64,000 bases of DNA from assembly GCF_000015565.1 (NCBI RefSeq), contig NC_008786.1, positions 1,984,001-2,048,000 on the forward strand, in the 5' to 3' direction. The position numbers were made by a program, and so were the translations under genes. Shown piece by piece: positions 7,515-56,230 of the stretch. Origin of the DNA: Verminephrobacter eiseniae EF01-2 (GTDB lineage Bacteria; Pseudomonadota; Gammaproteobacteria; Burkholderiales; Burkholderiaceae_C). The first letter of the stretch is position 1. Every line of letters starts with the position of its first letter. The notes beneath the pieces are model-generated. The model was not told the DNA's origin, searched no databases, and worked only from the letters and a program-made list of their open reading frames with translations.

Positions 7515-7547
7515 GCGCCGGTCTGCGGCGGCTGTCAGAGGGCGGCA

Positions 7548-8705
7548 TCAGCGCCGCACGTTGCGCTGTGGCCGGGGGCGCACGCCGGGATTGACGTGCA
7601 ATTCCACCAGTCGATCCCCGCGCTGCACCTGAAAGACCGAGTCCGTGCCGGGCTTGAGTGCCGCCACGGCGCTGAGCAACTCGGGCGCGCTGACCACGCT
7701 CTTGCCATCGACGCGCAGCACCACATCGCCCGGGCGCATGCCGGCCTGGGCTGCGGGGCCATTCTGCGCGACACCAATGACGATCACGCCCCTGGTGGTC
7801 TTCTTCACGCCAAAGGCTTCGGCCAGTTCGGGCGACAGCACACTGGGCTCCACGCCAATCCAGCCCCGCGTGACCTTGCCATCCCTGACGATGCTGTCGA
7901 GCACCAGCCGGGCCGTGGACACCGGGATCGCAAAGCCTATCCCCATGCTGCCGCCCGAGCGCGAATAGATCGCGGTGTTGATGCCCAACAGATTGCCGCT
8001 CACATCGACCAGCGCGCCGCCCGAATTGCCGGGGTTGATGGCCGCGTCGGTCTGAATGAAGTTCTCGAAGGTGTTGATACCCAACTGGTTGCGGCCCAGC
8101 GCACTGACGATGCCGCTGGTCACGGTCTGGCCCACGCCGAACGGATTGCCAATGGCCAGCACCCGGTCGCCCACATCGAGCGTATCGGAGTTGCCCAGCA
8201 CGATCACGGGCAGTTTGTCCAGCGCGACCTTCAGGATCGCCAGGTCGGTGTCGGGATCGGTGCCGATCACGCGGGCACGGGCGCGGCGGCCATCGGTCAA
8301 TGTGACCTCGATCTCGTCGGCCCCCTCGACCACATGGTTGTTGGTGAGGATATAGCCATCCGGACTGACGATCACGCCGCTGCCCAGCCCGACCTGCGAC
8401 TGGCTGCCCTGTCCGCCCTGGTCGCCAAAGAAGAACTGGAACCACGGGTCGTTGCTGCGCAAACTCCGCACTTCCTTGCTGGTATTGATGCTGACCACCG
8501 CCGGCGCCGCCCGGTGCGCTGCCGCGCTGAAGCTGCCGTTCGCCGGCTGCGCGCCGGGCGTGGCCGGCGCCTGCAGCAAGGCAACGCCGGCTGCGGAGCG
8601 CGTACCGCCCCGGCCCAGCCATTCGGGCTGCAACGTGGCGACGACGAAATAGGCCGCAACGAACACCGTCACGGCCTGGGAAAACAACAGCCAGAGTCGT
8701 TTCAT
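7548..8705 (-). CDS. HtrA/DegS-like periplasmic serine protease (S1C)
   Basis: 385 residues. One N-terminal hydrophobic segment (about 5-24) serves as a signal anchor, followed by a trypsin-like domain with the catalytic triad His124 (TNNHVVEG), Asp154 (DTDLAIL) and Ser228 (NPGNSGG), and a single PDZ domain (about 285-375). The uncleaved-looking anchor and single PDZ resemble DegS-type proteases, which act in the periplasm on misfolded or regulatory proteins, rather than two-PDZ DegP. The start MKRLWLLF places the anchor at the N-terminus; an upstream in-frame start adds only nine residues. It is convergent with glk (33 bases between stops) and divergent from the NIF3-like gene. Confidence 0.88.
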   Translation of the reverse strand: MKRLWLLFSQAVTVFVAAYFVVATLQPEWLGRGGTRSAAGVALLQAPATPGAQPANGSFSAAAHRAAPAVVSINTSKEVRSLRSNDPWFQFFFGDQGGQGSQSQVGLGSGVIVSPDGYILTNNHVVEGADEIEVTLTDGRRARARVIGTDPDTDLAILKVALDKLPVIVLGNSDTLDVGDRVLAIGNPFGVGQTVTSGIVSALGRNQLGINTFENFIQTDAAINPGNSGGALVDVSGNLLGINTAIYSRSGGSMGIGFAIPVSTARLVLDSIVRDGKVTRGWIGVEPSVLSPELAEAFGVKKTTRGVIVIGVAQNGPAAQAGMRPGDVVLRVDGKSVVSAPELLSAVAALKPGTDSVFQVQRGDRLVELHVNPGVRPRPQRNVRR

Positions 8706-30964: not shown

Positions 30965-31001
30965 GAAAAAAGGCCTTGCGGCAAACGCGCCGCAAGGCCT
31001 T
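30965..31001 (-). terminator. Rho-independent terminator of the tRNA-Pro gene
   Basis: Minus-strand transcript: 13-bp perfect stem (AAGGCCTTGCGGC pairing across GCGTTT) followed by a T-run (A residues at 30965-30970 on the plus strand). It starts 8 bases past the CCA end of tRNA-Pro. Confidence 0.88.
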
Positions 31002-31008
31002 CAGACGT

Positions 31009-31085
31009 TGGTCGGAGCGGCGGGATTCGAACTCGCGACCCCCTGCTCCCAAAGCAGATGCGCTACCAGGCTGCGCTACGCTCCG
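31009..31085 (-). tRNA. proT: tRNA-Pro (anticodon TGG)
   Basis: 77 bases. On the minus strand CGGAGCGTAGCGCAGCCTGG begins the acceptor and D arm; the anticodon loop reads CTTTGGGAG, so anticodon TGG; the T loop GTTCGAATCC is present, and the acceptor ends CGCTCCG plus A and encoded CCA. All arms pair. Confidence 0.96.
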
Positions 31086-31245
31086 ATGGCCTGCATTCTA
31101 CACCCTGATCTGCCAAGCCCCTGCTTTCTGGCGCAGTGTCCGTTTGGTGATTTTTCATGGCGACTCAGACAGTGCCGTCACAAGATTGCAGCCCCCAATT
31201 GGGGCTATCTCCATGGGCAGTGGCGCGCTTGGTTGGTGGCGCGGC

Positions 31246-31490
31246 GTGCGTTACAAAATGCCTGTCATCACTGCCTGGTCTACGCCCGGCGCAGTCCTGC
31301 TGATCGGGTCACTGCCTGAACCAGGCTCATGGGTGCATATCTGGTGGCAGGCACCATGGTTCTATTGCTTGGCATCACAGGCGTATTCGACGCCTTCATC
31401 AAAAAAATTCCACAGGGCATCAGTGCGGGTCTGCTGGCTGGAGTGCTGCTCAATTTTGGTTGGGGGGTGTTGGCAGACGCATCGATGCAT
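31246..31490 (+). pseudogene. benE-like benzoate/H+ symporter remnant
   Basis: Two adjacent frames together read the BenE family text. One (31246-31326) gives RYKMPVITAWSTPGAVLLI, a conserved BenE motif. The next frame from 31329 gives MGAYLVAGTMVLLLGITGVF followed by FIKKIPQGISAGLLAGVLLNFG, another family segment. A single-base frameshift near 31320-31328 separates them, and the N-terminal and C-terminal parts of the roughly 390-residue protein are absent. It is a dead fragment of a benzoate-type transporter. Confidence 0.8.
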
Positions 31491-31537
31491 GGCGCACACT
31501 CTCAACTTTCATCATCGTCCACACCGGAGCTTGCACC

Positions 31538-31972
31538 ATGAAAAGCAGTTTGCGCCTTCCGTACTACGAACTTTCACCACAGCTATTGCAAGGGTTGCGT
31601 CAAATCAAGGTCGATCTGGAGGCCAGTCCCCTGGGTCTGCCATTGATCGAACTTGTCTATCTGCGCGTCGCGCAGATCAACGGTTGTTCGTATTGCCTGA
31701 ATATGCACACCAAAACCTTGCGTGAGCGCAATGAGACGGATCGTCGTCTGGCCGAACTGGCCGGCTGGCGCGTCAGTTCCCAGTTCAGCCAGCGCGAGAA
31801 GTCGGCATTGGAGTGGGCCGAATCGCTGACCCATGTGGCCGATACCCATGCCCCGGACGAAGCCTTCTTCCCGCTGAAGGAGCATTTCAGCGATCAGGAA
31901 ATTTCCGATCTGACCTTCGCCATCGCGCTGATGAATGCAATGACCCGCCTTGCCATTGGCATGCGCCAGTAA
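31538..31972 (+). CDS. Carboxymuconolactone decarboxylase (AhpD-like) family protein
   Basis: 144 residues. The AhpD-type motif NGCSYCLNMHTK holds the paired Cys50 and Cys53 with His57, the usual peroxidase or thiol-redox centre in this family. Length and text match CMD-domain alkylhydroperoxidase-like proteins (YRIHGK-type members). Exact substrate unknown. The start MKSSLRLPYY is 47 bases after the benE remnant. Confidence 0.88.
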   Translation: MKSSLRLPYYELSPQLLQGLRQIKVDLEASPLGLPLIELVYLRVAQINGCSYCLNMHTKTLRERNETDRRLAELAGWRVSSQFSQREKSALEWAESLTHVADTHAPDEAFFPLKEHFSDQEISDLTFAIALMNAMTRLAIGMRQ

Positions 31973-32244
31973 GCACTGGGCTTGCCCGCATCGGGCTTCG
32001 ACGGCGCGACAAAAACGGGATGGTCGTGGGCTGTATCTGGTGGCGGCATATCCATGGACTGAAAGCAAAATATCCGCATCCATGCCCCTTCAGGTCGTGC
32101 CGGCATGCCGCGCTGGCGTTGGCGCAAACGGTGCCGACTGCGCGCGGTGCACCGGGGCCCCGCTGGCGCCAATGCCGTGCAGCGGTGCGCTTGCCACCCT
32201 CCTTCATCCTTTCATCCTCCCCCATTCCCCGCCCCGACCGGTGG

Positions 32245-42180: not shown

Positions 42181-45100
42181 TTGCGCATTGAATCGTTTCC
42201 AAAACATCTTGGTGTCTATGGCTTGCCTGCCTCTTTGCTGGACCGGGAAGACCACACGGTTGCTGTGATTGCCTTGATGCGGCGAAAAGCCTGCCTCAAC
42301 CGGGAAATTCGTCATGCAATTAAGTACGAAATGCAAATTCCGGCGGAGTGGCGAGCGCGAGTAGCCGGACGACTGTCGAAATTCGACGAGCGGATACTGG
42401 CTTGCAATCTGAGTCCGGCCGTGCGTTTTCGTACCTTTTGGTCTTGCAGCGGGATGTTTTTGAGTGGGGACGGCAAATGGCCGGTAGGCACAAAGGCATA
42501 TGCAATGGCACTCGACGTTCAACTGCTCGCCGCGTACAACCCGGACTGGATGCACCTCGGATATGACGAAACTGCAATGTCCGCATCGTGCCCGCAGTGG
42601 CGCGGCATTCGGGAGCGGATTCAACGCCTGACCAATCGACCGAAAGAGCAAGTTTCTTTTGGCGTATTCATGTTGTGGCCCAAAGTCCTGGCAGACTTGG
42701 CAGCCTGGGACGCACGGGAGCAGGAGCAACGTCTGATCCTCGCGCGAGTCGTCTTCTCACTGTCTTCCGTTGGTGCCACAGATTGGTTTATCAAAGAGGC
42801 TTTGACGCGCTGCCCCGCATTGCAAGAAGAGTTGGGCGATCTGGTGCATCCGTCTGAGATCGGGAAGGTGCCGAGCATGGATAGAGAAGAACCTCTCGTG
42901 CCCGTTGTCAACGCTGCTGCAACCGCTTGCCAAGAGTGGCGCGCGAGTTGGGATGTGCTGCTCGAAAGGCTTGAGTGCCTCACGGAACGGCTAAAGCAGC
43001 CGAGCCTCGAAGGCGTCACGGCGCTGGAGCAACTTTGCGGTGAGCTGGGTGTTGCGGTGCAACAAATGCCTTCTCAAGATGTTGTGGAAAGGGCCAGGCT
43101 TGAAGCCGCAGTCAAGGTCTTGGCAGACCATTGCCGCAGTTTGAGCCAAGAGCCTGTACTCGACGGTCTCGTCGATGAACTCGTCGGGAAAGTTCCGGCG
43201 CGCTGGCAGTTGGCACAGCAAGAGTGCACTGACGCCAAAGCGCTGGCTGCATTGGCCGACGATGCCGAACGCGCCATGTCCCAGACGATCGATTGCGCGG
43301 AGCGTCTTCGACAGGCATGGCAAGAACGAACAGACTTGGAGAAAGCAGTTGACCAAGCCAGTGCCGCCATCACATCCGCCAAGCCTTTTGCAGAGCGTCG
43401 AGTGTTGGAACTAAGGAGGCAAGAGAGTTATCGCCTGCTTGCGGATGCAGAGGCTGCGGTGTCCGGACTTGAGGCTGATTTGCTGGCCAGCGCGTCCCCG
43501 TTTGAGAAGTCCTTCGACCGTTCATCGAACTATCAAAGCGGACAATTGCTTCAGCAGGATGGGCAAACAAACGCTGTCTTGCCCGAGATTGAGGCAAAAC
43601 AGCCCGTCGTGGAACCAGTCCCCGCAGAAATTGACGCCCAGCCCAAGGCGCAAACGCAAAGCGCGTGTTGTGAGCTTGTGCTCGAGCAGCACACTGCGCC
43701 ACTGCAAGCTACGCCACCGATTGCAGCGCCGCCTGTGATGGCGCCTGCATCAGAGCCATCGGTGGCAGCGCCGAACAATGTCGTCGACGTCAAGGTGCCC
43801 ACGCCTGTGCTTCCAGCGGAGTTTGAAACAAATGTCGATGACAACCTCTACTCGGTCGAGGCGGGAGAGTTGTGCAAACCGATTTGGACTCTGCTTGGCT
43901 CACATCAGTTGGGTCTTGCGTATCAATTCACCAAAGCGATTGCAGAACAGAAGCCGACCCTCAGAGTGCCGCCGCCGGCGCTATTGGCTGCTGTCACGCT
44001 GGCCAAAGAGCTCGCACTGCCAGACGGTGCCATCAGGGAAGCCCTGACGAACCATTTGAACGAACTCACGTCCGACATGTTTGTTCAGGACGGACCGTAT
44101 GCTTGGCATACGGCGCTGAACCTTCTGCTGGTCGCTGCGACGTTGCGTCCGATGGTGCTTGCTCCCGGCGTAGGTGCAACGACGGCAGCGGGATACCTGC
44201 GCCTATCCAACTATCCTGCGCTGTATCGGTTGGTCGTCGAAATCAAAGAGTTCAGCGAGAGGCTGCAGGGATTCCGGATTGAACCGGCGGCGCTCAAGGC
44301 CGCTCGCTCCGAAGCGGGAATGCGCGAGGAATTGGCGCACCTGCAACGAGGTGCGACCGAGTGGTTGGGCGAGCATGCTCCGGCGATGACGATGAAGTTC
44401 GCTGCGGCCACAAACGTGTGGCGGCATTGGACGAAGCCACAGGGGGTGCTGCACCAGCTTGTTTCAATTGTTGCGGCCAACAGGTCTACCGACTTGCAAC
44501 ACGCCAAGTCTCTGGTCATGAAGCTATCTGATCCGAACGAATTCTCGCGCCTGGTGCGAGAGACGGACCGCAAAATACTTCGCCGAATCAGGGGAGAAGA
44601 CATTCACTCTGGCGCGCTTGACCAACTCCAGCGCAGCGTTGCCGAAGCGCGCACCTACGCCCGCAAGTGGATCATTTTGGCCGAATCCGAAGGGCAAAGC
44701 GGCAACAGGCTGCGCGAATTGCTCCACGAGGTTAGGCAGACGCTGAGCAAGGCGGCTTCAAGCGTTGACGTCGAACTGGCCAACGGAGATCCCGACGAGT
44801 GGGGCCTCGTCGCGGCGGCGCGATCCGTGGTGTCGTCGCAGTTCAAGGCAATGCGCAATCTGTTCGACCCTGCGGCCGAGTTGCTCCCCGCAGAGCCCAC
44901 TGCGGCCGAAGCGCTCGCACGTGCGGTATTGCTCGTTCCTTGCTTGCACCTGCACGAACGATGGGAACTCAGGACGGAGCTTGCGCAGGTGGTGTCTGCC
45001 ATTGCGCAATGGTCTGCTTTCCCCGGAACTTTGGAAGATGCTTTCCGGGCACGCTTGGAAAGCGGTGACCTTTTCGGTGCCGAACTCATCGTGCAAAAGT

Positions 45101-48100
45101 ACCCGGACTTCGAGGCCGCAGAGCGATGGCGTGTGGAACTCAAGCGCATGCGAGAGTCTTGGAGAAATGATCTCAACCGCCGCATTGCCGAGGCCCGGCG
45201 AGACATGGAGGTAGGTCGGGCATATGGCTATTTGAATGACCAAGACCTTGGTCATTTCGAGACGGAACTCAGGCGCTGCCAAGATCGTGCCGAGCAGGGC
45301 CAGTTCGATGTGGCCCTTGCGGCTGTTGACGATGCTCGCAAGGCATTGGCGGAACATCGTGCCAAGCGCACGCAACAGGTTCAACGAGCGCTATCGGAAA
45401 TCAACCGAACCGCCGAGAGTGCGCCAGGCATCGATGAGGTCGAGCGTGTACTTCGTGATGGCGATGTCGCTACTGCCCATGAGCTATTGCAGCGATTGGT
45501 GGAGGGCAAGCCCGTTTGGCCGGAAGAACATGCGCTGGTTGACGGGTTCAAGGAATTCTTCCCGCACACTTTGCAAACCCTGGATGCGTGGTTGGATGCG
45601 AATTCACCCCGCAGCGTCATTGAAGGAGCCATGCGCAGTGGTCAAAAGCTCGGTGCGTTGGATTTTGACCCCCTGGGAACTGCACAGCGTGAGCATGCGG
45701 TCAAGCTGTTTGGCTTGTGGTCTGAGATCAAATCGAAAAAGCGTGTCGATGCCGGGAAGCTCGAATCGCTGTTTAGCGGGCTCGGGTTTCAGTTCAAGCG
45801 AATTCAGGTGGTCACCGAACGGCCGAGTGCGCGCGAAGAAGTCTGGAGCCTGGAGTTGGAGCCGATGAACGACCGCGCGGTGTGTCCGGTGCCGCACTTC
45901 GGTTCCATGGCCAAGGGGCGCTATCGCGTGATTTGTGTCTGGGAGCAACTTGCCGACGAGGATATCCTCCAACTCGTGGGCGACCCGACGCTTCAGAAAC
46001 CAACTATCGTCCTGCACTTCACCCGGATAAAAGAACGCAGGCGCAGGGAACTCGCGCGGATTGCCAAGACCAGTCGCAAAGCGTTCCTGCTCGTCGACGA
46101 ATTGATGCTGATCTATCTTTTGGCGCAGTCGACGTCAAAGGTCTCGGGCCTGTTTCAACTGGCACTACCGTTCGCATACTCAACGCCGTATGACGCTACA
46201 GCCGGTTTGGTTCCCCCCGAAATGTTCTATGGCCGAAGCGCCGAGCTTGATGCGGTCAAGGGGATCAACGGTCGCTGCTTCATTTACGGTGGTCGTCAGT
46301 TGGGCAAGACAGCGCTGTTACGTCGTGCGGAGCAGTCGTTCCACGCACCGGACGCGGGGCGATTCTCGCGCTGGGTAGACCTGCGCGCCGAGGGGATCGG
46401 CGTCAGTCGTCAAGCCGAAGAGATTTGGGTTTGTCTTGCCGAGCAACTCAAGCTCATCAAGGTACTGGAGGCGGTTGTCCCGATTCCGAGTCCCTCACGC
46501 AAAGGAAGCATCGACACCATCATTCAGGAGATCAGACACTTTCTTGGGCAAGATGACGACAGGCGCATCCTGCTGTTACTTGACGAAGCCGACCGATTTT
46601 TCGAGCAGGATGGCAAAAAGGACTTCGCCGAGACCCGCCGCCTCAAGCAACTGATGGACGAAACGTCCAGGCATTTCAAGGTCGTCTTTGCCGGACTGCA
46701 CAACGTGCTGCGGATGACCGAGCGAGCGAACCATCCGCTCGCTCACTTCGGCGAGCCCATCAAGGTCGGACCGCTGGTAGATGAAGACGAAGTCAAGGAA
46801 GCTGAGGAATTGGTGCGCCGCCCCATGGCAGCCGCAGGGTTCGAGTTCGAGTCACGAAACCTGGTCATTCGGATCCTGGCACAAACGAACTACTACCCAA
46901 GCCTCATACAATTTTATTGCTCGCGCCTTTTGGGGCACATGCAGTCGAGGCTGGCATCGGCACGACACCCACCAGGGCCACGCTACATCATCTCGGACAA
47001 GGACATCGAGTCGGTCTACTCAAGTGGAGAACTTCGCGATGAGATCCGCTCCAAATTCCGTCTGACATTACAGTTGGACCCACGCTATGAGGTGGTTGCC
47101 TACGCCCTGGCGTGGGCCACTTTGGAGGGCACTTACAAGCACGCAGACGGATTGAACTGGAAGAGCATCCGCGAGAAAGGTGCGCTGCACTGGTGGCCGG
47201 AAGGATTCCAGGACACAAGCGAGCGCGATTTCTGCGTGCTCCTTGATGAGATGGTTGAGCTTGGTGTGTTGAGCAGGGCGCGCGAAGGCTACTACACGTT
47301 GCGCAATCTGAATATCCTGTTGCTTTTGGGCAGTCGCGATGAAATAGAGGCGGTACTCGTCAAGGATAGAGAGCCATCAGTCGAATTCGAGCTGTCGTCC
47401 TTCCGTCCGTCCTTGAAATCATCAACCAACAGTCCGCAACGCAATCCGCTCACGTATCAGCAACTCGACAAGCTCATGCGGCGCGAGAACACAGTGACGG
47501 CCATCGCTGGAAGCCATGCGGGCGGCATCTCTGACGTGATCGAGGCTCTACGCGACTATGTTGGAGAGACTGCACAGGTGAAGGTGTTGGAGGACGATTG
47601 CCTGGACACCATGTCGTTCACGCACGCTCTCGACCGTGCACTCAAGGCTCGAGAAACTGAAGGAAACACGCTGGTGCTCGTTCCGGCTACGGTTGCGTGG
47701 AGTTCGGAATGGATTGAGGCTGGCCGCCAAAAGCTCAACTTGCTCAGAAGCCCAAGCAAGTTCGTGTCCCTTGTTTTCCTGGCGAACCCAGTGACTTTGT
47801 GGGGCGCAATGAGCGACAGGGCTACCTTTGCAGACATGCAAGTGCCGTGGATGTCTTTGTTGCCCTGGGCTGACGAGTTCGTCAAGCACTGGCTCACCGA
47901 GCAACAACTACCTTCGGAAAAGGAAACTCGCCAGCAAGTTCGGCAAGTGACCGGCTACTGGGCATCGGCTTTGCAGGATCTGGTGAGGAACTGCAATCAG
48001 GAAAGCGAACTCAAGCGTCGCATTGAATCCCATTTCATCGGCATGGGGCCTGACCAAATTGATGCATGGGCCAAGTCCTTCGGTTTTGTCGTTTGTGAGC

Positions 48101-48303
48101 CTCAACTTGTGCTTTGCAGACTGGCCGCATATTGTGAGCCGGTCACCGTAGCTGAGCTCGCTGAGCTCGCGGAGGTCTCTTTGGAGATTGTCGAGCGGTC
48201 CTTGAGGTGGGCAGACCTTCTCGGATTGGTCGTTCGTGGGGGTGGCGACTATTGGAGTCTGGACCCTTTCATCAGCGGACTGCTCAACAAACTGGAGAAC
48301 TGA
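42181..48303 (+). CDS. Giant STAND/AAA-like ATPase, first gene of a two-gene module
   Basis: 2040 residues from TTG 42181. I do not recognise a family for the whole protein. Residues 1-230 are unassigned; 240-450 are helical and coiled-coil-like; 455-555 are Pro/Ala/Gln-rich; 560-1330 look helical and repeat-like. An ATPase core begins with FYGRSAELDAV (1349-). Walker A is GGRQLGKT (1370-1377) and Walker B is RRILLLLDEADRFFE (Asp1468, Glu1469), followed by VVFAGLHNVLRMTERAN. Winged-helix text (about 1620-1700) follows. Residues 1757-1960 look like a second, degenerate P-loop fold (AGSHAGGISDVIEAL), ending in another winged helix. Its stop and the next ATG share one base (TGATG). Lower GC than neighbours suggests transfer. 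Confidence 0.85.
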   Translation: MRIESFPKHLGVYGLPASLLDREDHTVAVIALMRRKACLNREIRHAIKYEMQIPAEWRARVAGRLSKFDERILACNLSPAVRFRTFWSCSGMFLSGDGKWPVGTKAYAMALDVQLLAAYNPDWMHLGYDETAMSASCPQWRGIRERIQRLTNRPKEQVSFGVFMLWPKVLADLAAWDAREQEQRLILARVVFSLSSVGATDWFIKEALTRCPALQEELGDLVHPSEIGKVPSMDREEPLVPVVNAAATACQEWRASWDVLLERLECLTERLKQPSLEGVTALEQLCGELGVAVQQMPSQDVVERARLEAAVKVLADHCRSLSQEPVLDGLVDELVGKVPARWQLAQQECTDAKALAALADDAERAMSQTIDCAERLRQAWQERTDLEKAVDQASAAITSAKPFAERRVLELRRQESYRLLADAEAAVSGLEADLLASASPFEKSFDRSSNYQSGQLLQQDGQTNAVLPEIEAKQPVVEPVPAEIDAQPKAQTQSACCELVLEQHTAPLQATPPIAAPPVMAPASEPSVAAPNNVVDVKVPTPVLPAEFETNVDDNLYSVEAGELCKPIWTLLGSHQLGLAYQFTKAIAEQKPTLRVPPPALLAAVTLAKELALPDGAIREALTNHLNELTSDMFVQDGPYAWHTALNLLLVAATLRPMVLAPGVGATTAAGYLRLSNYPALYRLVVEIKEFSERLQGFRIEPAALKAARSEAGMREELAHLQRGATEWLGEHAPAMTMKFAAATNVWRHWTKPQGVLHQLVSIVAANRSTDLQHAKSLVMKLSDPNEFSRLVRETDRKILRRIRGEDIHSGALDQLQRSVAEARTYARKWIILAESEGQSGNRLRELLHEVRQTLSKAASSVDVELANGDPDEWGLVAAARSVVSSQFKAMRNLFDPAAELLPAEPTAAEALARAVLLVPCLHLHERWELRTELAQVVSAIAQWSAFPGTLEDAFRARLESGDLFGAELIVQKYPDFEAAERWRVELKRMRESWRNDLNRRIAEARRDMEVGRAYGYLNDQDLGHFETELRRCQDRAEQGQFDVALAAVDDARKALAEHRAKRTQQVQRALSEINRTAESAPGIDEVERVLRDGDVATAHELLQRLVEGKPVWPEEHALVDGFKEFFPHTLQTLDAWLDANSPRSVIEGAMRSGQKLGALDFDPLGTAQREHAVKLFGLWSEIKSKKRVDAGKLESLFSGLGFQFKRIQVVTERPSAREEVWSLELEPMNDRAVCPVPHFGSMAKGRYRVICVWEQLADEDILQLVGDPTLQKPTIVLHFTRIKERRRRELARIAKTSRKAFLLVDELMLIYLLAQSTSKVSGLFQLALPFAYSTPYDATAGLVPPEMFYGRSAELDAVKGINGRCFIYGGRQLGKTALLRRAEQSFHAPDAGRFSRWVDLRAEGIGVSRQAEEIWVCLAEQLKLIKVLEAVVPIPSPSRKGSIDTIIQEIRHFLGQDDDRRILLLLDEADRFFEQDGKKDFAETRRLKQLMDETSRHFKVVFAGLHNVLRMTERANHPLAHFGEPIKVGPLVDEDEVKEAEELVRRPMAAAGFEFESRNLVIRILAQTNYYPSLIQFYCSRLLGHMQSRLASARHPPGPRYIISDKDIESVYSSGELRDEIRSKFRLTLQLDPRYEVVAYALAWATLEGTYKHADGLNWKSIREKGALHWWPEGFQDTSERDFCVLLDEMVELGVLSRAREGYYTLRNLNILLLLGSRDEIEAVLVKDREPSVEFELSSFRPSLKSSTNSPQRNPLTYQQLDKLMRRENTVTAIAGSHAGGISDVIEALRDYVGETAQVKVLEDDCLDTMSFTHALDRALKARETEGNTLVLVPATVAWSSEWIEAGRQKLNLLRSPSKFVSLVFLANPVTLWGAMSDRATFADMQVPWMSLLPWADEFVKHWLTEQQLPSEKETRQQVRQVTGYWASALQDLVRNCNQESELKRRIESHFIGMGPDQIDAWAKSFGFVVCEPQLVLCRLAAYCEPVTVAELAELAEVSLEIVERSLRWADLLGLVVRGGGDYWSLDPFISGLLNKLEN

Positions 48304-49409
48304 TGCGTCTTTGGAGTCTTCCAGGTCCCAGCCACTTTCTTGACCAAGCGGTGGCTGCACTCAGGGATGGTTGCAGCTTACTTTTGCCGGTGCCTGCACA
48401 CGGTCTGAATGGCTTGCGAAAAGCGCTCGAAGATCGGCTGCACTTCGATGGCTGGAACGTGGCGCCCGTCGTCGAAGATGATGGTGGTGATCCAGTCGAG
48501 CAGATGTTTTCGGCGCTCGGACTCGATGACGGCAATCAAAGGCGAACGGTCGCGCTGCTTCGGCAAAGGCTCGATCCCGGGCAGGTTGTGCTCGTTGACA
48601 GGGTCCTGCCGTGCAGTTGGAGCGCTTGGAAGCAGTTCATCGGTGAATACGAAATCGCAAGCCGCAGCATTGGCATGTGTGAGCGCCCGCTCATCGTGCT
48701 GTTCACCGAAGGTGTCGCGCTTTTGGAGATGCCGCAAACAGCTGTTGCGCTACGTGCATTGGCGTGGAACAACGTGGTCGGCGAACTCGATGTCTTGCTG
48801 TTTGTGACTTCTTTGCTACGTAATGGCACAAGACCCGGCTACGAATTGCGACTCGTCGGACGAATGATTAGCCGCTTGGCGTTGTGGGATTTGGCTGTCG
48901 CCGCCTACCTCATCGAGCGCAATCCGGAGGATCTTTTTCACCCTGCGGTAGTGCTCAACGACGCTTTGCGCGAACTCGGGATGCCGGCCGGACTGGACAG
49001 GACATGGCAATCCGGTGGTTTGCAGTGCTTTGACGATGTGCAGTGCGCTCACCCCTTCTTGATTGTGCGGGAAGGCGATGCACAGCAAGAGCTGACGATG
49101 CGCCTGTGGGCGGCTCAAGCGACTGAGGTGCTTCCGGCGCTCGAGCTGCAACGTCGCAACCTCGTTCGCCTCATGCGGGGGTTGGTTGCAACACCGATAG
49201 ATGTGGCGGGCATCAGGTACTGCGACCTCAACGATATGGAGATTGGGCCACTGTCTTATGTGGCTCATAGGCAGGGCCTGAGTGACAACATCCAGCGGAC
49301 GGCGGAAAAGCTCAAGCGATTGCGCAACAAACTCGCGCATCTTGATGCGCTGGACGCGATCGATGTGTTTGACGAAAAGCTGTACCAGCACTCGACGACT
49401 GACGACTGA
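48303..49409 (+). CDS. HEPN-like protein with degenerate NTPase domain, second gene of the module
   Basis: 368 residues. Its N-terminal half (about 10-190) resembles the degenerate P-loop region of its partner: VAALRDGCSLLLPVPAHGLN and VVLVDRVLPCSWSAWKQF line up with AGSHAGGISD and LVLVPATVAWSSEWI. The C-terminal helical part ends with AEKLKRLRNKLAHLDALD. RNKLAH (Arg341 to His346) is the RX4H motif of HEPN ribonucleases; the Swt1-type HEPN group is the closest resemblance. RNase activity is inferred, not shown. Translational coupling to the ATPase suggests a shared complex or sensor/effector pair. Confidence 0.8.
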   Translation: MRLWSLPGPSHFLDQAVAALRDGCSLLLPVPAHGLNGLRKALEDRLHFDGWNVAPVVEDDGGDPVEQMFSALGLDDGNQRRTVALLRQRLDPGQVVLVDRVLPCSWSAWKQFIGEYEIASRSIGMCERPLIVLFTEGVALLEMPQTAVALRALAWNNVVGELDVLLFVTSLLRNGTRPGYELRLVGRMISRLALWDLAVAAYLIERNPEDLFHPAVVLNDALRELGMPAGLDRTWQSGGLQCFDDVQCAHPFLIVREGDAQQELTMRLWAAQATEVLPALELQRRNLVRLMRGLVATPIDVAGIRYCDLNDMEIGPLSYVAHRQGLSDNIQRTAEKLKRLRNKLAHLDALDAIDVFDEKLYQHSTTDD

Positions 49410-49714: not shown

Positions 49715-50302
49715 TCAGTTTTGCTTGTCTTCCAGTTTTTTCTTTGCCGCATGCAGTGCGGGCAGCATGAAGTCGCGCAGCGCTTGCACGGCGGCGGCGT
49801 CGTCCAGACCCGCTGCGGGCTCGTTGCCGGTGTCGGCGCGGTAGGCGCGCGCGCGCCATTCGAGTCGGCTGCCACTGCCGGCAGGCACGACCCGCAGCCG
49901 TGCCGAGTAGGAGCCGACCGGAAGCACCTTGGTGTCTATCGTCCGCCCCGAGCGGTAGGACATGCTCATTTCTGCCGGCAGGTGCTCGTCGAGTTCTTCG
50001 CTGACGCCGGCGCCTTGGTCGAAGGTCAGGCGCCGTTTCGAGCCGACGGCGTTGCCTTGGTCGGCCTCGCTGGCCTTCAGGCGCGGGTTCCAGCGCGCTA
50101 GCGATCCGAAGTCGCCGACCAGCGCCCACACCGCAGCGGGTGCGGCGGCGATTTCGACCGCTTCATCGATCTTTTGTGGCGTCGGCCCGTGCGCGTGCGC
50201 CGATGGCGCGGTCAGCACGGCCAATGCAAATGCCAGGGCCGGCAGTCCACGGTGGCTGCGGCGGTGTGCCGGGTGAGGGTGAGGGTGAGGCTGTGATTTC
50301 AT
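49715..50302 (-). CDS. mxaD: Methanol dehydrogenase accessory protein MxaD
   Basis: 195 residues. A signal peptide (to about residue 37, ending APSAHAHG) precedes an SRPBCC/START-like domain (IDEAVEIAAAPAAVWALVGD at the start, RVVPAGSGSRLEWRARAYRA). MxaD is a periplasmic protein that helps interaction of methanol dehydrogenase with cytochrome cL. It is the last gene of the mxa operon, 3 bases after mxaL. His-rich HPHPHPAHRRSH precedes the hydrophobic core of the signal. Confidence 0.85.
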   Translation of the reverse strand: MKSQPHPHPHPAHRRSHRGLPALAFALAVLTAPSAHAHGPTPQKIDEAVEIAAAPAAVWALVGDFGSLARWNPRLKASEADQGNAVGSKRRLTFDQGAGVSEELDEHLPAEMSMSYRSGRTIDTKVLPVGSYSARLRVVPAGSGSRLEWRARAYRADTGNEPAAGLDDAAAVQALRDFMLPALHAAKKKLEDKQN

Positions 50303-50305
50303 GCG

Positions 50306-51400
50306 TCAAAGGGGTGTGGGTCGGGAAAGGGTGGCAGGGGCGATGCGCCGGCCTGCGCCTGTGGCGCCCGGCAGGGGTTGGCGTTGCCGGCGCCATTCGG
50401 GCAGCAGGCCCGCCAGCAGTGCCAGCGCGCCGAGCAGCACCAAAGGGGCGTGCAGTTCGTGGCGCTGTGGCCGTGTGGCGCCGCCTGGCAGTCTTTGCAG
50501 CGCGGTGACCACGGTGCCGGCATCGCTGGCCGTATGGACTTGCAGCCCGGTGATTTCGGCGATGCGGGCGAGGACTTCGTCCCGGCGCCACGACAGGTGC
50601 TCGGTGCCCGCACTGGGCGGGCGCTGGGGTCGGTTGCGCAGGTCCTCTCCGGCGGCGGCCATGCGCTCTCTGTCCGGCGCAGGAATCGCGGGCTGGGCTC
50701 CCGGGGAGGCAAAGGCCGCTGCTTCTTCCTGCGTCCAGTAGCCAATGGTCTGGCCCTGGGCGCCGGTGCGCGGCACGGGCTGGGGTTGCAGGCCGCCGAC
50801 GCCGAACAGGGCCCCTGCCGGGGTGTTGGCCGATCGGTCAAAGCGTGGCTCTCTGCCGGGGAAGATCGGCGGCGCCTGGTGGCCGTCGGTGAACAAGGCC
50901 AGCGCGGTGCCGGGCCAGTGCTGCCGGATCTGCTCCAGCGCCGAGTAGGTGCCGTAAAAGATGTGGCTGTCGGCCGCCCATGCCATGCGCCAGTCGAGGT
51001 TGGTCAGCACATCGTCGAGCGCCGCGTAGTGCGCGCAGACTTCGACCGGCGCCATCAGCACCAGGGTTTTGCGTTCGGTGAACACGCCGACGCCGGCACT
51101 GTGGCCGCAGGGCAGTTCGCGCACCACGCGGCGCAGGAGTGCGCGTGTGTAGGCCAGGCGTGTGATGGGCGCGGCGTCTGCCGGCAAGTTGCCGTCCGGG
51201 GGTTGCCCGTGCATGTCGGCCACGTTCATGCTCTGCGTGATGTCGACGACCAACAAGGTGGTGCCGACGCGCGACGGCCAGGTGAAGCCGGGGCGCAGCA
51301 GTGCCAGCGCAAAGGCCAGCACGGCCAGGATGGCGAGCCACCAGCGTGCGCGATGGCGCAGGGCTGTTTTTGGCGTGGACGATGGCCGGGTGCCAGTCAT
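50306..51400 (-). CDS. mxaL: von Willebrand domain protein MxaL
   Basis: 364 residues from ATG 51400, one base after the mxaK stop (TGAGATG). A hydrophobic N-terminal segment (about 22-42) anchors a VWA domain with the MIDAS-like motif VVDITQSMNVADM and TALALFTDGHQAP. A second membrane segment near the C-terminus (ALVLLGALALLAGLL) follows. MxaL works with MxaC, K, A, S and R to insert calcium or assemble methanol dehydrogenase. Confidence 0.88.
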   Translation of the reverse strand: MTGTRPSSTPKTALRHRARWWLAILAVLAFALALLRPGFTWPSRVGTTLLVVDITQSMNVADMHGQPPDGNLPADAAPITRLAYTRALLRRVVRELPCGHSAGVGVFTERKTLVLMAPVEVCAHYAALDDVLTNLDWRMAWAADSHIFYGTYSALEQIRQHWPGTALALFTDGHQAPPIFPGREPRFDRSANTPAGALFGVGGLQPQPVPRTGAQGQTIGYWTQEEAAAFASPGAQPAIPAPDRERMAAAGEDLRNRPQRPPSAGTEHLSWRRDEVLARIAEITGLQVHTASDAGTVVTALQRLPGGATRPQRHELHAPLVLLGALALLAGLLPEWRRQRQPLPGATGAGRRIAPATLSRPTPL

Positions 51401-51401
51401 C

Positions 51402-51974
51402 TCAATGCATTCCGCGCGGCGGCCCGACCATTTCGGTCCAGGCGGCTTTGTCCTTGAGCAGGCGCTGCTGCGCCTCGTCGTCGAGGTCGCTGCCGGAGCG
51501 GCGCCAGTTGCGCACCTCCAGATCGGGCAGCACGCGCAATGCAAGCTCGAAGTTGTAGCGGGTGTTCCAGTCGTCGGGCTGTATCCGCAGCGCCCGGCGG
51601 TAGCCGGATTTGGCCAGTTGCAGCAGCGCCATCGCGCGTTCCGTGCTGCCTTCGTCGCGCGCGGCCTCGATGCCGCGGCGCAGGTACAGGTTGGCGACGT
51701 TGACCCGCACCGCCTGGCGCACGCTGTCGCTGCCCAGTGCTTGTGCGTCTGCGTAGGCGCTCAGCGCTTCGTCGAAGCGGCCCTGCCGCTCCAGCGCGAT
51801 GGCATGTGCCAGCAGCACCGGTGCCGGCGCGCCGGGCGCCGCAAGCCCCGCGCTCATCTGCTGGTTGGTCTGCGCCGCTTGCCAGGCGTCGAACGCGCGC
51901 GCGCCGGCCAGCGCTGCCGCGAGCAAGGCCGTGAGCAGGCACAGCCATGGCAGCCAGCGCCCTGCCAGCAGCAT
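51402..51974 (-). CDS. mxaK: MxaK, methanol dehydrogenase assembly protein
   Basis: 190 residues from ATG 51974. One membrane helix (about 4-26) then tetratricopeptide-like helices (ALSAYADAQALGSDSVRQAV, ERAMALLQLAKSGYRRALRI). Ends with LLKDKAAWTEMVGPPRGMH. The position between mxaC and mxaL fixes the name; the family is loosely conserved, so the exact start is less certain. Confidence 0.8.
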   Translation of the reverse strand: MLLAGRWLPWLCLLTALLAAALAGARAFDAWQAAQTNQQMSAGLAAPGAPAPVLLAHAIALERQGRFDEALSAYADAQALGSDSVRQAVRVNVANLYLRRGIEAARDEGSTERAMALLQLAKSGYRRALRIQPDDWNTRYNFELALRVLPDLEVRNWRRSGSDLDDEAQQRLLKDKAAWTEMVGPPRGMH

Positions 51975-51994
51975 GGGCCGCAGGCGTGCCGGGG

Positions 51995-52975
51995 TCAGCC
52001 GCGCTGCCAACGCTCTATCTCCAGGCTGCGCGCCAGCAGCAGCAGCAGCGCGCACGATAGCGCGATGGCATCGCACCACGGTGCCAAGTTGCGCCGTGGC
52101 TGCGCTTGCAGGTAGCGCAGCGGCAGGTTTTGCAGCCGCGAGACATCGCTGATCGCGGCCGCGAGGGCCTGCGGGTTGTCGGCCTCGTACAGCCGGTAGG
52201 GTGTGCCCAGGTCTTGGAAGAAGGTGTGGAGGTGGTATTCGGGCGCCACGTCGGCGCCGGCCTGCGGGTCGGGCGGACGGGTAGGGCTGTTGCTGCCGGG
52301 CGAGCGCAGGTACACCCAGTACAACTGGACGCGGTATTCCTCGAACAAGCGGCGCAGCTTGATTTGGGCACGCGGCTCGATCTGGGCTGCGCCGTCGGAC
52401 ACGAACAGGATCACGCGCGAACCGGTATGAGGCTGCTCGCCGAACTGCGCCAGCGCCAGCGCCAGGCCGGCCGCGACATTGGTCAGTCCGATGCCCGGCG
52501 TCGCTGCGGCGCGCAGCGCGGCGCGCACCGCTTCGTGGTCGGACGACAGGCCCAGCACCTGCATCGGCGCGGTGGAAAACAGGGTCAGGCCGAACAGGTC
52601 GAGCGGACGCTCTTTGACAAAGCCGTCGAGCAGCCGCGCTGCGGCCTCGCTCTTGGACTCCTCGCCGGCCTGGCGCGCGGCGGCAAAGCCGTCGGCCATG
52701 CTGGCGCTGCGGTCGAGCACGATGGCCAGGTGCGCGCCGGTGCCGGTGCGCTCGATCGGTAGTCCTTGCAGATAGCCGCCGGCCAGACTGAGCGCGGCGG
52801 CGGCGAGCGCCAGGCTGGCGGCGCAGCGCAGGCCCATGTCGACCCAGCGTGACGCCGCATCCACGGGCCAGGTGCCGACGCTGGCCCACATCACCCGTCG
52901 CTGGCCGTGCAGCCACCATGGCAGCACGGCCAAGGCCAGGCCATAGAGCCAGGCAGGATGCTCAAACTCGGGCAT
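51995..52975 (-). CDS. mxaC: von Willebrand domain protein MxaC
   Basis: 326 residues. Aerotolerance/BatA-like: two N-terminal membrane segments (WLYGLALAVLPWWLHG and around 50-70), then a VWA domain with MIDAS motif VLDRSASMADGFAAA and ILFVSDGAAQIEP, and a C-terminal membrane helix (ALSCALLLLLARSLEI). Needed with MxaA, K, L, S for an active calcium enzyme. ATG 52975 overlaps mxaA by 14 bases. Confidence 0.88.
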   Translation of the reverse strand: MPEFEHPAWLYGLALAVLPWWLHGQRRVMWASVGTWPVDAASRWVDMGLRCAASLALAAAALSLAGGYLQGLPIERTGTGAHLAIVLDRSASMADGFAAARQAGEESKSEAAARLLDGFVKERPLDLFGLTLFSTAPMQVLGLSSDHEAVRAALRAAATPGIGLTNVAAGLALALAQFGEQPHTGSRVILFVSDGAAQIEPRAQIKLRRLFEEYRVQLYWVYLRSPGSNSPTRPPDPQAGADVAPEYHLHTFFQDLGTPYRLYEADNPQALAAAISDVSRLQNLPLRYLQAQPRRNLAPWCDAIALSCALLLLLARSLEIERWQRG

Positions 52976-54053
52976 GCGCCCTCCGGCGGCCGGGCGAGCG
53001 GCTGAACTCGGCCGCCAGCCGAAACTCGCGCTGCGCCAAGCGGCGCAGCAGTGCGGCCAGGTCCTGCCGTGCCAGCCGCGTGGCGGGGGCGGCAGCCCCG
53101 GGGTCGAGGTAGAAGGCGCACTGCGACGCTGCGAATACCTCGCGCACCTGGCTGGCCAGAGGCGCCAGCCCGGGATGCGCGGCGAAGAAGGCGTCGAGCC
53201 GATCGGCAAACACCACTTCTGCGGCCGTCGCATCGAAGGCCCGGTGCCAGCAGCGCAGGTCGTCGGCGTCGGCTGGCAGCACCCCGCCCGCACCGGCGCG
53301 CGGGCGGGACTTCACGGTGCGCCAAGCCTGGGCGAAGGGCCGGGTGCTGCGCCGCAGCAGCCAGCGCCCGCTGCTCCAGGCCCAGCCGGCCAGCGCCAGC
53401 AGCGCCACGCCGAGCCAGATGCCGCTCTCGATCAGCCGGCTACGCACGTCCAGCCGGTTGGCTTGCCAACCCGGGCGCATGCTGTCGACCCAGCCGGCCC
53501 GGCGCTCCCACGGCACCAGCGGCGACAGCGATAGCCGGCTGGCCGGCAGCATCAGCCGGGTGATCTGCGCGCCCTTGCGCAGCCGCAGCGGGGTGGCTGG
53601 CAACGGCACGTCGGTGGTGTTGTGCACCGTTTTGAACAGTTGCCAAGTGACGGACAACCACCGGCAATTTGCGCAGACGCTGCCGGCCGGCTCGACGCTG
53701 TGGCCCCGCAGTTCCAGCGGGCCGTCTTCACGGGTGGGCGCTTGCAGCCCGTCGCGGTCGATCTCCCAGCCCGGCGGCCATTCGATCAGGGCACGGTAGA
53801 CGAGCAAGTCGCCCAGGTGGCGGGCGCTGTCGCGGGGCGGCTGCGTGCGCAGCAATCGCGGCATCGGCGCGCCATCGGGCGCTGCGGCCGCCGATGTGGT
53901 GGCTGACGTAGTGGCCGATGTGGCCGACATGGCCGATGTCGTGGCCGAAGCCGGGAGCGTGCCAAGCATCCAGGCCATCAGCATGGCCAGCGCGATGCCG
54001 CAGGCGCTCAGTGGCTCGTCAAACCGGCGGGGGGTCGACACAGGATGTCTCAT
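52962..54053 (-). CDS. mxaA: MxaA, methanol dehydrogenase calcium-insertion protein
   Basis: 363 residues. A signal/anchor segment (about 15-38) followed by an Ala/Thr/Ser-rich repeat (SATTSAMSATSATTSATTSA), a periplasmic domain with GSVCANCRWLSV and a membrane helix (about 210-232). A cytoplasmic C-terminal part continues to VRRRAHARV-type end. Named from its place between mxaS and mxaC and from its architecture; MxaA is known to help insert calcium. ATGA overlap with mxaS. Confidence 0.85.
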   Translation of the reverse strand: MRHPVSTPRRFDEPLSACGIALAMLMAWMLGTLPASATTSAMSATSATTSATTSAAAAPDGAPMPRLLRTQPPRDSARHLGDLLVYRALIEWPPGWEIDRDGLQAPTREDGPLELRGHSVEPAGSVCANCRWLSVTWQLFKTVHNTTDVPLPATPLRLRKGAQITRLMLPASRLSLSPLVPWERRAGWVDSMRPGWQANRLDVRSRLIESGIWLGVALLALAGWAWSSGRWLLRRSTRPFAQAWRTVKSRPRAGAGGVLPADADDLRCWHRAFDATAAEVVFADRLDAFFAAHPGLAPLASQVREVFAASQCAFYLDPGAAAPATRLARQDLAALLRRLAQREFRLAAEFSRSPGRRRAHARV

Positions 54054-54922
54054 GTGCCGCCCCGGGCCAGGAAATGCCGCGCCAGCGCTGCCAGGTTCAG
54101 CCCGTCTTGCGCCACCAGCAGCGAGGCGCCGTGGCGCCGCGCCATTTGCGCCGCGCCGGCATGGCGCGCCTGTTGCGCCGCAGCCAGGCGATCGGCCAAG
54201 CCCGGGTGCAGGAACACCAGCCGCTCGCGCGCGTTTTCCAGATCGGCCAGACGCACCAGCCCCCAGCGGGCTGGCGGCGCGCGCTCCAGGCTGTCGGCCA
54301 GCAGCACGACCACGACTTCGTGCTGCGCCAACTGCTTGAGCATTTTCTCGAACAGCGCCATGTCGAAGTAGAGGTCGGAGACCACGAACACCAGAGAGCG
54401 CTGCCGTGGCAGCCAGCGGGTCGCCTGCACCAGGCCCTGGGCGCTCGCTTCGCGTGCGGCGCCTTGTACGGCCAGGTCGCGCAGTTGCCGGGCGACATGC
54501 TCGCCGGCGTGGCGTGACAGCGTTGGCGGCAGCAGCAGTTCGCGCCGCACGGCGCCATCGCAGCCGATGAAGCCGAACGGGTCGCCGCGACGGAATGCGC
54601 CACGCGCCAGCGCCCGGGCAAAGCGGGCGGTGAGTTCGAAGCGCTCGACGCTGCCGGCAAAGCGCATCGAGCGCGACAGGTCGGCCAGCAATACCACCGG
54701 GATCCGGCTGCGCTGGCGAAACTCGCGCACCCAGGGCCGGCCAAACGGGTCGGCGACGCTGGCGCGCAGGTCGATGCGGCGCGCATCGCGCCCCACGGCA
54801 AGCGGCACCACGCCGCGAAACTCTTCGCCGCTACCGGCCACGCGGGAGCGGTGGCTGCCGGGGTGCACATCGGCGGCGCGCCAGCGGATGCGGTAGGCAA
54901 GCTCTTCGGCGGCGCGGGTCAT
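54050..54922 (-). CDS. mxaS: DUF58 protein MxaS
   Basis: 290 residues. Typical DUF58 text: IRWRAADVHPGSHRSRVAGS, RRIDLRASVADPFGRPWVRE and a VWA-like stretch VVLLADLSRSMRFAG. DUF58 proteins pair with MoxR ATPases; here MxaR is encoded immediately upstream with 30 bases between. Start MTRAAEELAYRIRW. Confidence 0.88.
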   Translation of the reverse strand: MTRAAEELAYRIRWRAADVHPGSHRSRVAGSGEEFRGVVPLAVGRDARRIDLRASVADPFGRPWVREFRQRSRIPVVLLADLSRSMRFAGSVERFELTARFARALARGAFRRGDPFGFIGCDGAVRRELLLPPTLSRHAGEHVARQLRDLAVQGAAREASAQGLVQATRWLPRQRSLVFVVSDLYFDMALFEKMLKQLAQHEVVVVLLADSLERAPPARWGLVRLADLENARERLVFLHPGLADRLAAAQQARHAGAAQMARRHGASLLVAQDGLNLAALARHFLARGGT

Positions 54923-54952
54923 GGAGCGCTCGATGGTGTCACGGCGCTGGCG

Positions 54953-55972
54953 TCACGGTGCGGCGACCCGGCGCAGTATCTCCGCCGCCAGGGGCCGTGC
55001 AATCTCGGCCCGCTGCGCCTCGTACACCGGCTGCAATGCCAAGCGGTGCGCGATGGTGTCGACGAACACCGTGCGCAGGTCTTCGGGCACGATCGCCGCG
55101 CGGCCCTCCAGCCAGGCATGCACACGCGCCGCGCGGACCAGCATCGCGACACCACGCGGGCCGGCGCCGGCCGCCATCAGTTCTTCGACTTCGATCTCGG
55201 GCAACAGCACGCCGTAGCGCGCCGGCTCTCGCGTGGCCAGCCACAGTTCCGTGCCGTAGTGGCGCAGGGCCGGGCTGGCGCTGATGGTGTGTTGCAGCGT
55301 CGATGCCAGCCCATCGAGTTGCGCCGGGTCGATCAGACCTTCGGGAACCGGCGATAGCAGCGCCTGCGTGTCGTGGAAGCGGGCATCGAACATCAGCGCT
55401 TCGAGGTGTGCCCGATCGGTGGGCGCTTCGATCAGGATCTCCATCAGAAAGCGGTCGCGCGACGCGGCCGGCAACTCGAAGGTTTCCTCGCGCTCGACCC
55501 GGTTGCGGTCGGCGAACACCGTCAGGTGGGCAAACTCGAATTCGCGGTTGAACGCCGCAATGGTGCGCTCGGCCATCAGCCGCAGCAGCAATGCGTGCAC
55601 CTGCGGGCGCGCACGGTTGATTTCGTTGAAGAAGAAGACCGAGAGTTTTTCGCCCTGCGCCAGCAGCGGCCCGGGCAGCACGCGGGGGCGGCCGTCGTCA
55701 CCGAGCTGGGTGTAGTAGATCAGGTCGCTGGGCATCAGGTCGATGGTGCCCTCGATGCGCTGGTAGCCGCCGCCGATGCCCCGCGCCAGCGCCTGTAGCA
55801 GCGTGGTCTTGCCGACGCCGACATCGCCTTCGAGCAGCACATGGCCCCGGGCGAACAGCGCGACGACCACGCTGCGCACGGGCTTGGGCATACCGACCAT
55901 CACGGCATTCAAGGCATTTTCGAGCGTGAGGGCGCGTTGCCGCCAGTCCGCGAGCAGGTTGTCGGAGGTCAT
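54953..55972 (-). CDS. mxaR: MoxR-type AAA ATPase MxaR
   Basis: 339 residues from ATG 55972, the usual MoxR size. Walker A is GDVGVGKT (residues 49-56); the Walker B line FFFNEINRARPQVHALLLRL has Asn in place of the usual Asp. The C-terminal MoxR lid includes ELMAAGAGPRGVAMLVRAAR. A chaperone-like ATPase that works with the VWA proteins MxaC, L and S in metal insertion. A start at 56038 would add 22 non-family residues; neither start has a strong ribosome site. Confidence 0.88.
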   Translation of the reverse strand: MTSDNLLADWRQRALTLENALNAVMVGMPKPVRSVVVALFARGHVLLEGDVGVGKTTLLQALARGIGGGYQRIEGTIDLMPSDLIYYTQLGDDGRPRVLPGPLLAQGEKLSVFFFNEINRARPQVHALLLRLMAERTIAAFNREFEFAHLTVFADRNRVEREETFELPAASRDRFLMEILIEAPTDRAHLEALMFDARFHDTQALLSPVPEGLIDPAQLDGLASTLQHTISASPALRHYGTELWLATREPARYGVLLPEIEVEELMAAGAGPRGVAMLVRAARVHAWLEGRAAIVPEDLRTVFVDTIAHRLALQPVYEAQRAEIARPLAAEILRRVAAP

Positions 55973-56230
55973 GGGGGAAAAGAAAGGGTGGCGCCAGGGG
56001 ACGAAGGGCTTTTGGGCAGCATTCAACCCAAGTCCCATACGCCATGTGCCATGTGCCCCTGGCTAGGGGCGTTTGCGGCTTTGCAAAACCGCGCGATGGC
56101 TGCGGCTATTGCCGGGCGTGCGCCTGGCATCCTTGCCGGCCCGGGCGCATGCCATCGCGGGGACTCGCTCAGCGTTCATCGATGAACGGCGGGGAGGTAC
56201 AGCTGTTGGGGCGTCTGGCGGGCGGCGTCT

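Follow-up and report, generated by a model that had tools for sequence, protein, structure and literature searches.

The window analysed here is the whole 64,000-nucleotide stretch of Verminephrobacter eiseniae EF01-2 contig NC_008786.1 between positions 1,984,001 and 2,048,000, and within it we examined two adjacent genes at window positions 42181..49409, one encoding a giant protein with an ATPase domain (the giant) and the other a smaller protein with a HEPN-like region (the partner). Both open reading frames (ORFs) are intact and, as an earlier reading of the letters by themselves (the sequence-only reading) had described, they encode 2040 and 368 residues and share one base within TGATG, the final A of the giant's TGA stop codon (48301-48303) being the first base of the partner's ATG. 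The TTG start of the giant is supported by its opening residues (GLPASL...IALM), which line up with those that open close homologues; P0047, the database entry for this giant, is 1949 amino acids (aa) long, begins 91 residues late and omits window positions 42181-42453. As the partner aligns with 44 other proteins across 88-100% of its length and the giant aligns with close homologues along its length, chance ORFs can be excluded. The coordinates of both genes and of the features within them are collected in Table 1.

Domains of the giant and its partner

Searches with the giant sequence retrieved only families below the cut-off (AAA_22, AAA_16, ATPase_2, HTH_15 and others), no match in PDB for the sequence alone and, for residues 1000-1950, no match in phage records; its N-terminal module has no Pfam match. 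The NCBIfam matches to IS66 TnpA (E 0.003, over the low-complexity linker) and PRK10518 (E 0.18) were taken as chance, as were all other non-AAA matches. A profile of the giant core gave weak Cdc6/STAND matches among PDB sequences, together with unrelated ones, and the predicted structure of the giant matches ORC-like folds and then CED-4/NB-ARC-like (NLR) folds. The sequence-only reading had noted a single intact P-loop, GGRQLGKT, with a Walker B motif, LLLLDE, and both motifs prove to be invariant in a 28-row alignment of giants, with GK and DE also invariant in 13 diverse rows. With Walker A and Walker B both present, the giant is, as modelled, a STAND/ORC NTPase with a winged helix. The same reading had described a degenerate second NTPase-like region and winged helices, which agree with the ORC-like and CED-4/NB-ARC-like fold matches, the C-terminus of the giant being a second, dead NB-ARC-like domain. 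STAND proteins usually carry C-terminal sensor repeats; the variable part of the giant is N-terminal.

The partner was left unnamed by Pfam and NCBIfam except for a weak NCBIfam match to PRK00118 (E 0.09), its profile found no match among PDB sequences, and no match was found in phage records. The fold matches of its predicted structure are AAA/STAND/ORC proteins, including AVAST5 and EfAvs5 chains, a list that tests residues 1-262, and on this model these residues are a dead STAND/ORC-like domain. The three helices that follow (Table 1) are predicted with high confidence, and 14 of 35 divergent partners, the window partner itself not among them, have a weak HEPN_Swt1 match at E<=1 (best 6.2e-4). 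Down to 16% identity with the window partner, E313, R341 and H346 are the only residues invariant among these 35 partners, R341 and H346 being invariant also in another partner set (45 of 45). This is the pattern of an active site, and it suggests that the C-terminal region of the partner is HEPN-like and a predicted RNase. The sequence-only reading had the gene ending in RNKLAH; the motif is present and lies near the end of the 368 residues, not at it. That reading's proposal, which joined a STAND/AAA-like ATPase to an RX4H HEPN-like protein, finds support in the fold matches, in the invariance of R341 and H346, in the weak HEPN_Swt1 matches and in the pairing described below.

A sequence link between the dead STAND domain of the partner and the dead NB-ARC domain of the giant was not significant (hhalign E 0.039, probability 1.3%; second test E 0.14), and we therefore call them related folds from their separate matches only.

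Table 1. Genes and features of the giant-partner pair, in window positions
Feature	Position	Strand	Residues	Remarks
Giant ORF	42181-48303	+		2040 aa, TTG start, intact without internal stop; variable N-terminal module, helical middle, predicted active ORC/STAND ATPase and dead NB-ARC-like domain
N-terminal module	42181..43545	+	1 to about 455	boundary drawn by eye; confined to close homologues, with another sequence in its place in distant relatives
Proline-rich low-complexity linker	43546..43845	+	about 456-555	read from sequence
Middle region	43846..45180	+	556-1000	common to giants beyond the close clade (profile)
Predicted active ORC/STAND-type ATPase with winged helix	46168..47367	+	1330-1729	
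Walker A GGRQLGKT	46288..46311	+	1370-1377	K1376
Walker B LLLLDE	46570..46587	+	1464-1469	includes D1468 and E1469
Predicted degenerate NB-ARC/CED-4-like domain with winged helix	47416..48300	+	1746-2040	P-loop position GSHAGGISD, without GK[ST]
Partner ORF	48303-49409	+		368 aa, ATG start, one-base overlap with giant
Predicted degenerate STAND/ORC-like domain	48303..49088	+	1-262	without Walker A
HEPN-like helical region	49089..49385	+	263-361	helices 263-291, 314-323, 328-345
E313 codon	49239..49241	+	313	invariant acidic residue, 35/35 partners
RNKLAH (R341...H346), RX4H motif	49323..49340	+	341-346	R and H invariant, 45/45 and 35/35

Pairing, N-terminal exchange and distribution

To avoid the bias of searching with the partner, pairing was counted in 18 loci reached through the giant core only. 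In 13 of these the partner lies directly downstream, in every case with R-x3-[AS]-H, and both loci from an independent scan are among the 13. The 18 loci are not independent events, since several are related (L007/L070 from Azospirillum, L014/L068 from Streptomyces). Plasmid matches came from 27 records, 13 of which were fetched; L071, where the broken giant is spread over several frames, was excluded, and matches to the ATPase only (e.g., L032-L034, L065-L067) were not counted as giants. The profile used to call partners was built with 11 of the 13, and these 11 are also matched by a close-clade profile from which all 13 are absent, the weakest being L030 (E 6e-9); the two partners outside the calling profile, L073 and L074, match it at E 2.8e-45 and 3e-51. 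Four loci from the scan of genome contigs all have the giant immediately upstream of the partner with the same one-base overlap, a set that is biased because it was found through the partner.

Two further arrangements were seen at related loci. L034:5892-12373 (minus strand) encodes a 1631-aa protein with a related ATPase core and then, with a 4-base overlap, a 529-aa protein that Pfam does not match at E<=0.01; this may be a further two-gene system of the same type. At L063 the gene for a 1646-aa DEAD helicase with an MZB (MrfA Zn-binding) domain (L063:1267-6207) runs 13 bases into the start of a giant that has no partner, and an integrase gene follows that giant.

All-against-all BLAST places the beginning of the part common to distant giants near window residue 552. 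Of the giants tested, a profile of the window-type N-terminus, which lies ahead of this part, matches only those of the window, L003, L004 and L005 (E<=0.01). A profile of the middle region also matches L008, L009, L010, L013, L014, L063, L068 and L069 and the pPIWI-RE fusions L015 (E 2e-8) and L011 (E 2e-6), with no match in L030, L031, L070 or L074, nor in L007, L012 or L073. A complete or near-complete pPIWI-RE module is fused ahead of the giant in six relatives. Bradyrhizobium (L015), Microvirga (L011) and two genomes from the window's own order (L030, L031) have the X and RNaseH domains in all four cases and MID in three, per Pfam, and in Azospirillum oryzae (L070) and contig L074 the module was assigned by a pPIWI-RE profile match. 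The same arrangement is split over two ORFs in Azospirillum ramasamyi (L007). Upstream of the L007, L015 and L031 giants lies a gene with Y and REase (restriction endonuclease) domains, the companion known from pPIWI-RE islands; the Z domain scores above the cut-off in L015 and below it in L031. The window giant, itself scanned, has no pPIWI-RE domain (Pfam E<=1; pPIWI-RE profile E<=0.01). Another front end is found on a plasmid of the cyanobacterium Brasilonema octagenarum (L009:9682-16551), where a complete sigma-70 factor (regions 1.2, 2, 3 and 4) stands in-frame at the N-terminus of the giant; no HEPN partner was found at this locus, and a helicase gene follows the giant. The giants of L008, L010, L012, L013 and L014 have no convincing Pfam domain at the front.

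Partners vary at the other end. Those at L007:16092-17765, L011:15378-16994, L015:15292-16941 and L070:12507-14084 have an added C-terminal AAA_33 domain, which is like polynucleotide kinase (PNK) and zeta, and keep R-x4-H; AAA_33 is absent from the partners of the pPIWI-RE fusions L030 and L031. We considered whether pPIWI-RE-linked partners have the kinase in place of the HEPN region, and rejected this because the alignment puts the kinase behind it.

The partner profile found at least 1 of 398 genomes in a phylum-level sample and at least 2 of 399 in a family-level sample, and the giant core at E<=0.001 found at least 12 of 399 (order) and 14 of 398 (phylum), most of these matches covering the ATPase core or less. 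The window's own genome is included in each count, and the counts are lower bounds because at most 2 or 5 candidates were scored per genome in most rows. Copies of the pair also occur on plasmids. The guanine-cytosine (GC) content is 57.6% in the giant and 57.8% in the partner against 64.9% in the window, and GC at third codon positions (GC3) is 0.65 in both genes against 0.89, 0.94 and 0.85 in three other window genes measured. The left flank of the pair was found at 76-80% identity over its length in 5 of 39 other genomes of the genus, and in all five the alignment stops at window position 42068, with other sequence beyond. A search for an empty insertion site did not establish one: the right flank was not found in the stretches fetched from those five genomes, so that 42068 marks a synteny break and insertion is not demonstrated. 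The sequence-only reading had judged that the pair looks transferred, from GC samples of 45% and 52% against 70% in an adjacent gene, which measure 45%, 51.7% and 70%; rarity, atypical GC and the break at the left edge are consistent with an acquired accessory module.

Proposed mechanism and alternative explanations

Our preferred reading, with somewhat better than even confidence, is that the two genes constitute a sensor-switch-effector module whose output is abortive infection or induced dormancy. The N-terminal module of the giant would sense a trigger, relatives using for this a pPIWI-RE module (presumably nucleic-acid-guided) or a sigma-70 factor, and the signal would pass through the middle region to the sole active ORC/STAND ATPase and change its nucleotide state. 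The dead NB-ARC-like domain of the giant and the dead STAND-like domain of the partner would then assemble with the active ATPase. HEPN RNases generally work as dimers, and such an assembly could bring the HEPN domains of partners into contact, with RNA cleavage at the E313/R341/H346 site and shutdown of the cell as the result. Beyond the genes, predicted folds, catalytic-type conservation, pairing and N-terminal exchange described above, this scheme supposes contact between giant and partner, a switch driven by ATP, a HEPN region active as a dimeric RNase and a phage or other invader as the trigger.

The antiphage or abortive-infection role proposed in the sequence-only reading draws its support mainly from the pPIWI-RE fusions in relatives, and several findings weigh against it. 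That reading had asked whether the pair is conserved, which it is in the 13 paired loci; the other five of the 18 giants, from Brasilonema (L009), Bosea (L013), Streptomyces (L014 and L068) and L063, have no recognisable partner. Structure comparison, with a match list that tests residues 1-262 of the partner, did not confirm the HEPN fold, no HEPN structure being among the matches listed. The flanks of the window pair, judged by eye, are unlike a defence neighbourhood. For these reasons phage defence is something that we infer and do not assert.

The kinase-bearing partners are the closest case for another explanation, that the pair is a cellular RNA-processing or stress machine without a defence role, with a logic like that of Las1-Grc3, a HEPN nuclease with a polynucleotide kinase (PMC10942766). 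The L007, L011, L015 and L070 partners likewise join an R-x4-H region to AAA_33, but they do so in a single bacterial chain tied to a STAND giant, and the window partner has no kinase. The rarity of the partner, its atypical GC, the plasmid copies and the relatives fused to pPIWI-RE all speak against such a housekeeping function, which we consider unlikely. Still less probable is a toxin-antitoxin pair, with the partner a constitutive HEPN toxin, the giant its neutraliser, and loss or inactivation of the giant freeing the toxin. The tight overlap of one or a few bases and the fixed gene order would suit such a pair, and HEPN toxins are common in conflict systems (PMC3710099). However, the partner frame is kept in L002, where the giant is split into two frames, and the partner ORF (6809-8032, minus strand) is open in L072 (G453:C2:14000-33000), where the pPIWI-RE-giant frame is broken into several pieces. 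A partner frame that survives a broken giant is more easily explained by a latent effector than by a free toxin, although errors in draft assemblies could mimic this. In our judgement, neutralisation would also need far less than a 2040-aa giant that combines an active ATPase with a dead NB-ARC-like domain and an exchangeable front end, and no MNT nucleotidyltransferase domain is among the Pfam matches of the giant (E<=1).

A HEPN region without catalytic activity, there only for dimerisation or RNA binding, is very improbable; the output would then lie elsewhere, for instance in DNA cleavage by the pPIWI-RE/REase part in relatives. Some HEPN families are indeed motif-less and inactive (PMC3710099), and the structure search leaves the fold of this region unconfirmed, but the only residues invariant in 35 partners form an active-site pattern and Pfam finds no other nuclease domain in the window pair. 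Finally, the fold matches of the giant include ORC2, TnsC and MuB chains, as would be expected if it were a transposition or replication ATPase of a mobile element with the partner as its subunit. STAND and NLR/CED-4 proteins match at comparable Z, however, and an integrase lies directly downstream only in L063 (with no systematic scan of neighbours), which makes this last explanation scarcely credible.

Known systems and genomic neighbourhood

PADLOC assigned no family to the giant or the partner at E<=1, in keeping with the sequence-only reading, which could link the pair to no named system. Avs/AVAST proteins combine an ORC/STAND fold with separate sensor and effector modules. The pair shares that fold but carries its effector on a dead STAND domain within a second protein, and its variable part is at the N-terminus. 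The three-gene pPIWI-RE islands (Burroughs et al. 2013, PMC3702460) resemble the distant giants, which are fused to the X, MID and RNaseH module and in some cases lie beside Y-REase and Z genes; they differ from the window giant, which has no pPIWI-RE domain. The words ATPase, AAA and HEPN do not occur in the main text of that paper, which therefore does not describe the STAND fusion or the HEPN partner, at least in these terms. In BREX, a large STAND/ORC ATPase, BrxC, is accompanied by the small, catalytically inactive STAND/ORC proteins BrxB and BrxF (PMC12839542), a likeness to our pair, but here the dead partner bears a HEPN-like effector, and neither of the two proteins scanned has a DUF499/BrxC match (Pfam E<=1; PADLOC). 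Abi2/Swt1 HEPN domains fused to DUF499 or STAND ATPases (Anantharaman et al. 2013, PMC3710099) are likewise a case of HEPN linked to an ATPase, and weak HEPN_Swt1 matches occur among the partners; in contrast to these fusions, the window has two genes, a dead STAND carrier and a giant with an exchangeable N-terminus.

The pairing of STAND sensors with HEPN effectors is an already known theme. As far as our searches go, what is undescribed is a dead STAND domain as carrier, pPIWI-RE and sigma-70 as interchangeable front ends, and partners that combine HEPN with a kinase: the module does not appear in the available text of PMC3702460, PMC3710099, PMC7641849, PMC10991935 and PMC12839542, most subscription papers and preprints lying outside the search. 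A paper on EVE domains retrieved as a match to 'PIWI-RE' was irrelevant, its wording being 'Piwi-related'. More tentatively, and with rather less than even confidence, we suggest that the pair represents a new modular immune chassis, a conserved STAND giant with a dead-STAND-HEPN effector into which different detectors are plugged. The pPIWI-RE branch might be a nucleic-acid-guided switch that fires a HEPN RNase, some lineages adding a PNK-like kinase to process the 5'-OH ends left by the cut, and the sigma-70 branch might sense or hijack RNA polymerase, while the window giant would carry an uncharacterised domain in this place. What pPIWI-RE proteins do biologically is an open question, and the relatives that join them to a STAND switch, with a HEPN-like partner alongside, offer a testable mechanism in which recognition by PIWI leads to cleavage of RNA and shuts the cell down, beyond DNA restriction alone. 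A dead switch domain that bears an effector, and a single ATPase chassis that reads unrelated front ends, would resemble the logic of animal and plant NLR immunity.

The neighbours of the pair differ between loci. On the Salinibacter ruber plasmid pSR118 (L008), the pair is about 10 kb from type I-E cas1/cas2 genes, and on a Methylocystis parvus plasmid (L012) it stands between a PD-(D/E)XK/UvrD gene pair and an STY4851-family/DEAD helicase gene pair, surroundings that look like a defence cluster. Ten chosen flanking ORFs of L002-L005 included a WYL protein in L002 and, in L004, an AAA_27/SMC-like protein (weak LmuB and mad3 matches) and a response regulator (weak SduA match); the remaining ORFs had cytochrome, VWA, TonB receptor, NUDIX, DUF1330 or phosphoesterase domains, or nothing. 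Downstream of the pair in the window, at 49715-56038, we noted by eye a gene for an SRPBCC-like protein and an operon of VWA, DUF58-like and MoxR-like genes. The GC fraction of the window also dips to 0.576 at 31000-32000, beside a tRNA-Pro gene (31009-31085), and to 0.52-0.56 at 1-2000, which are possible further islands.

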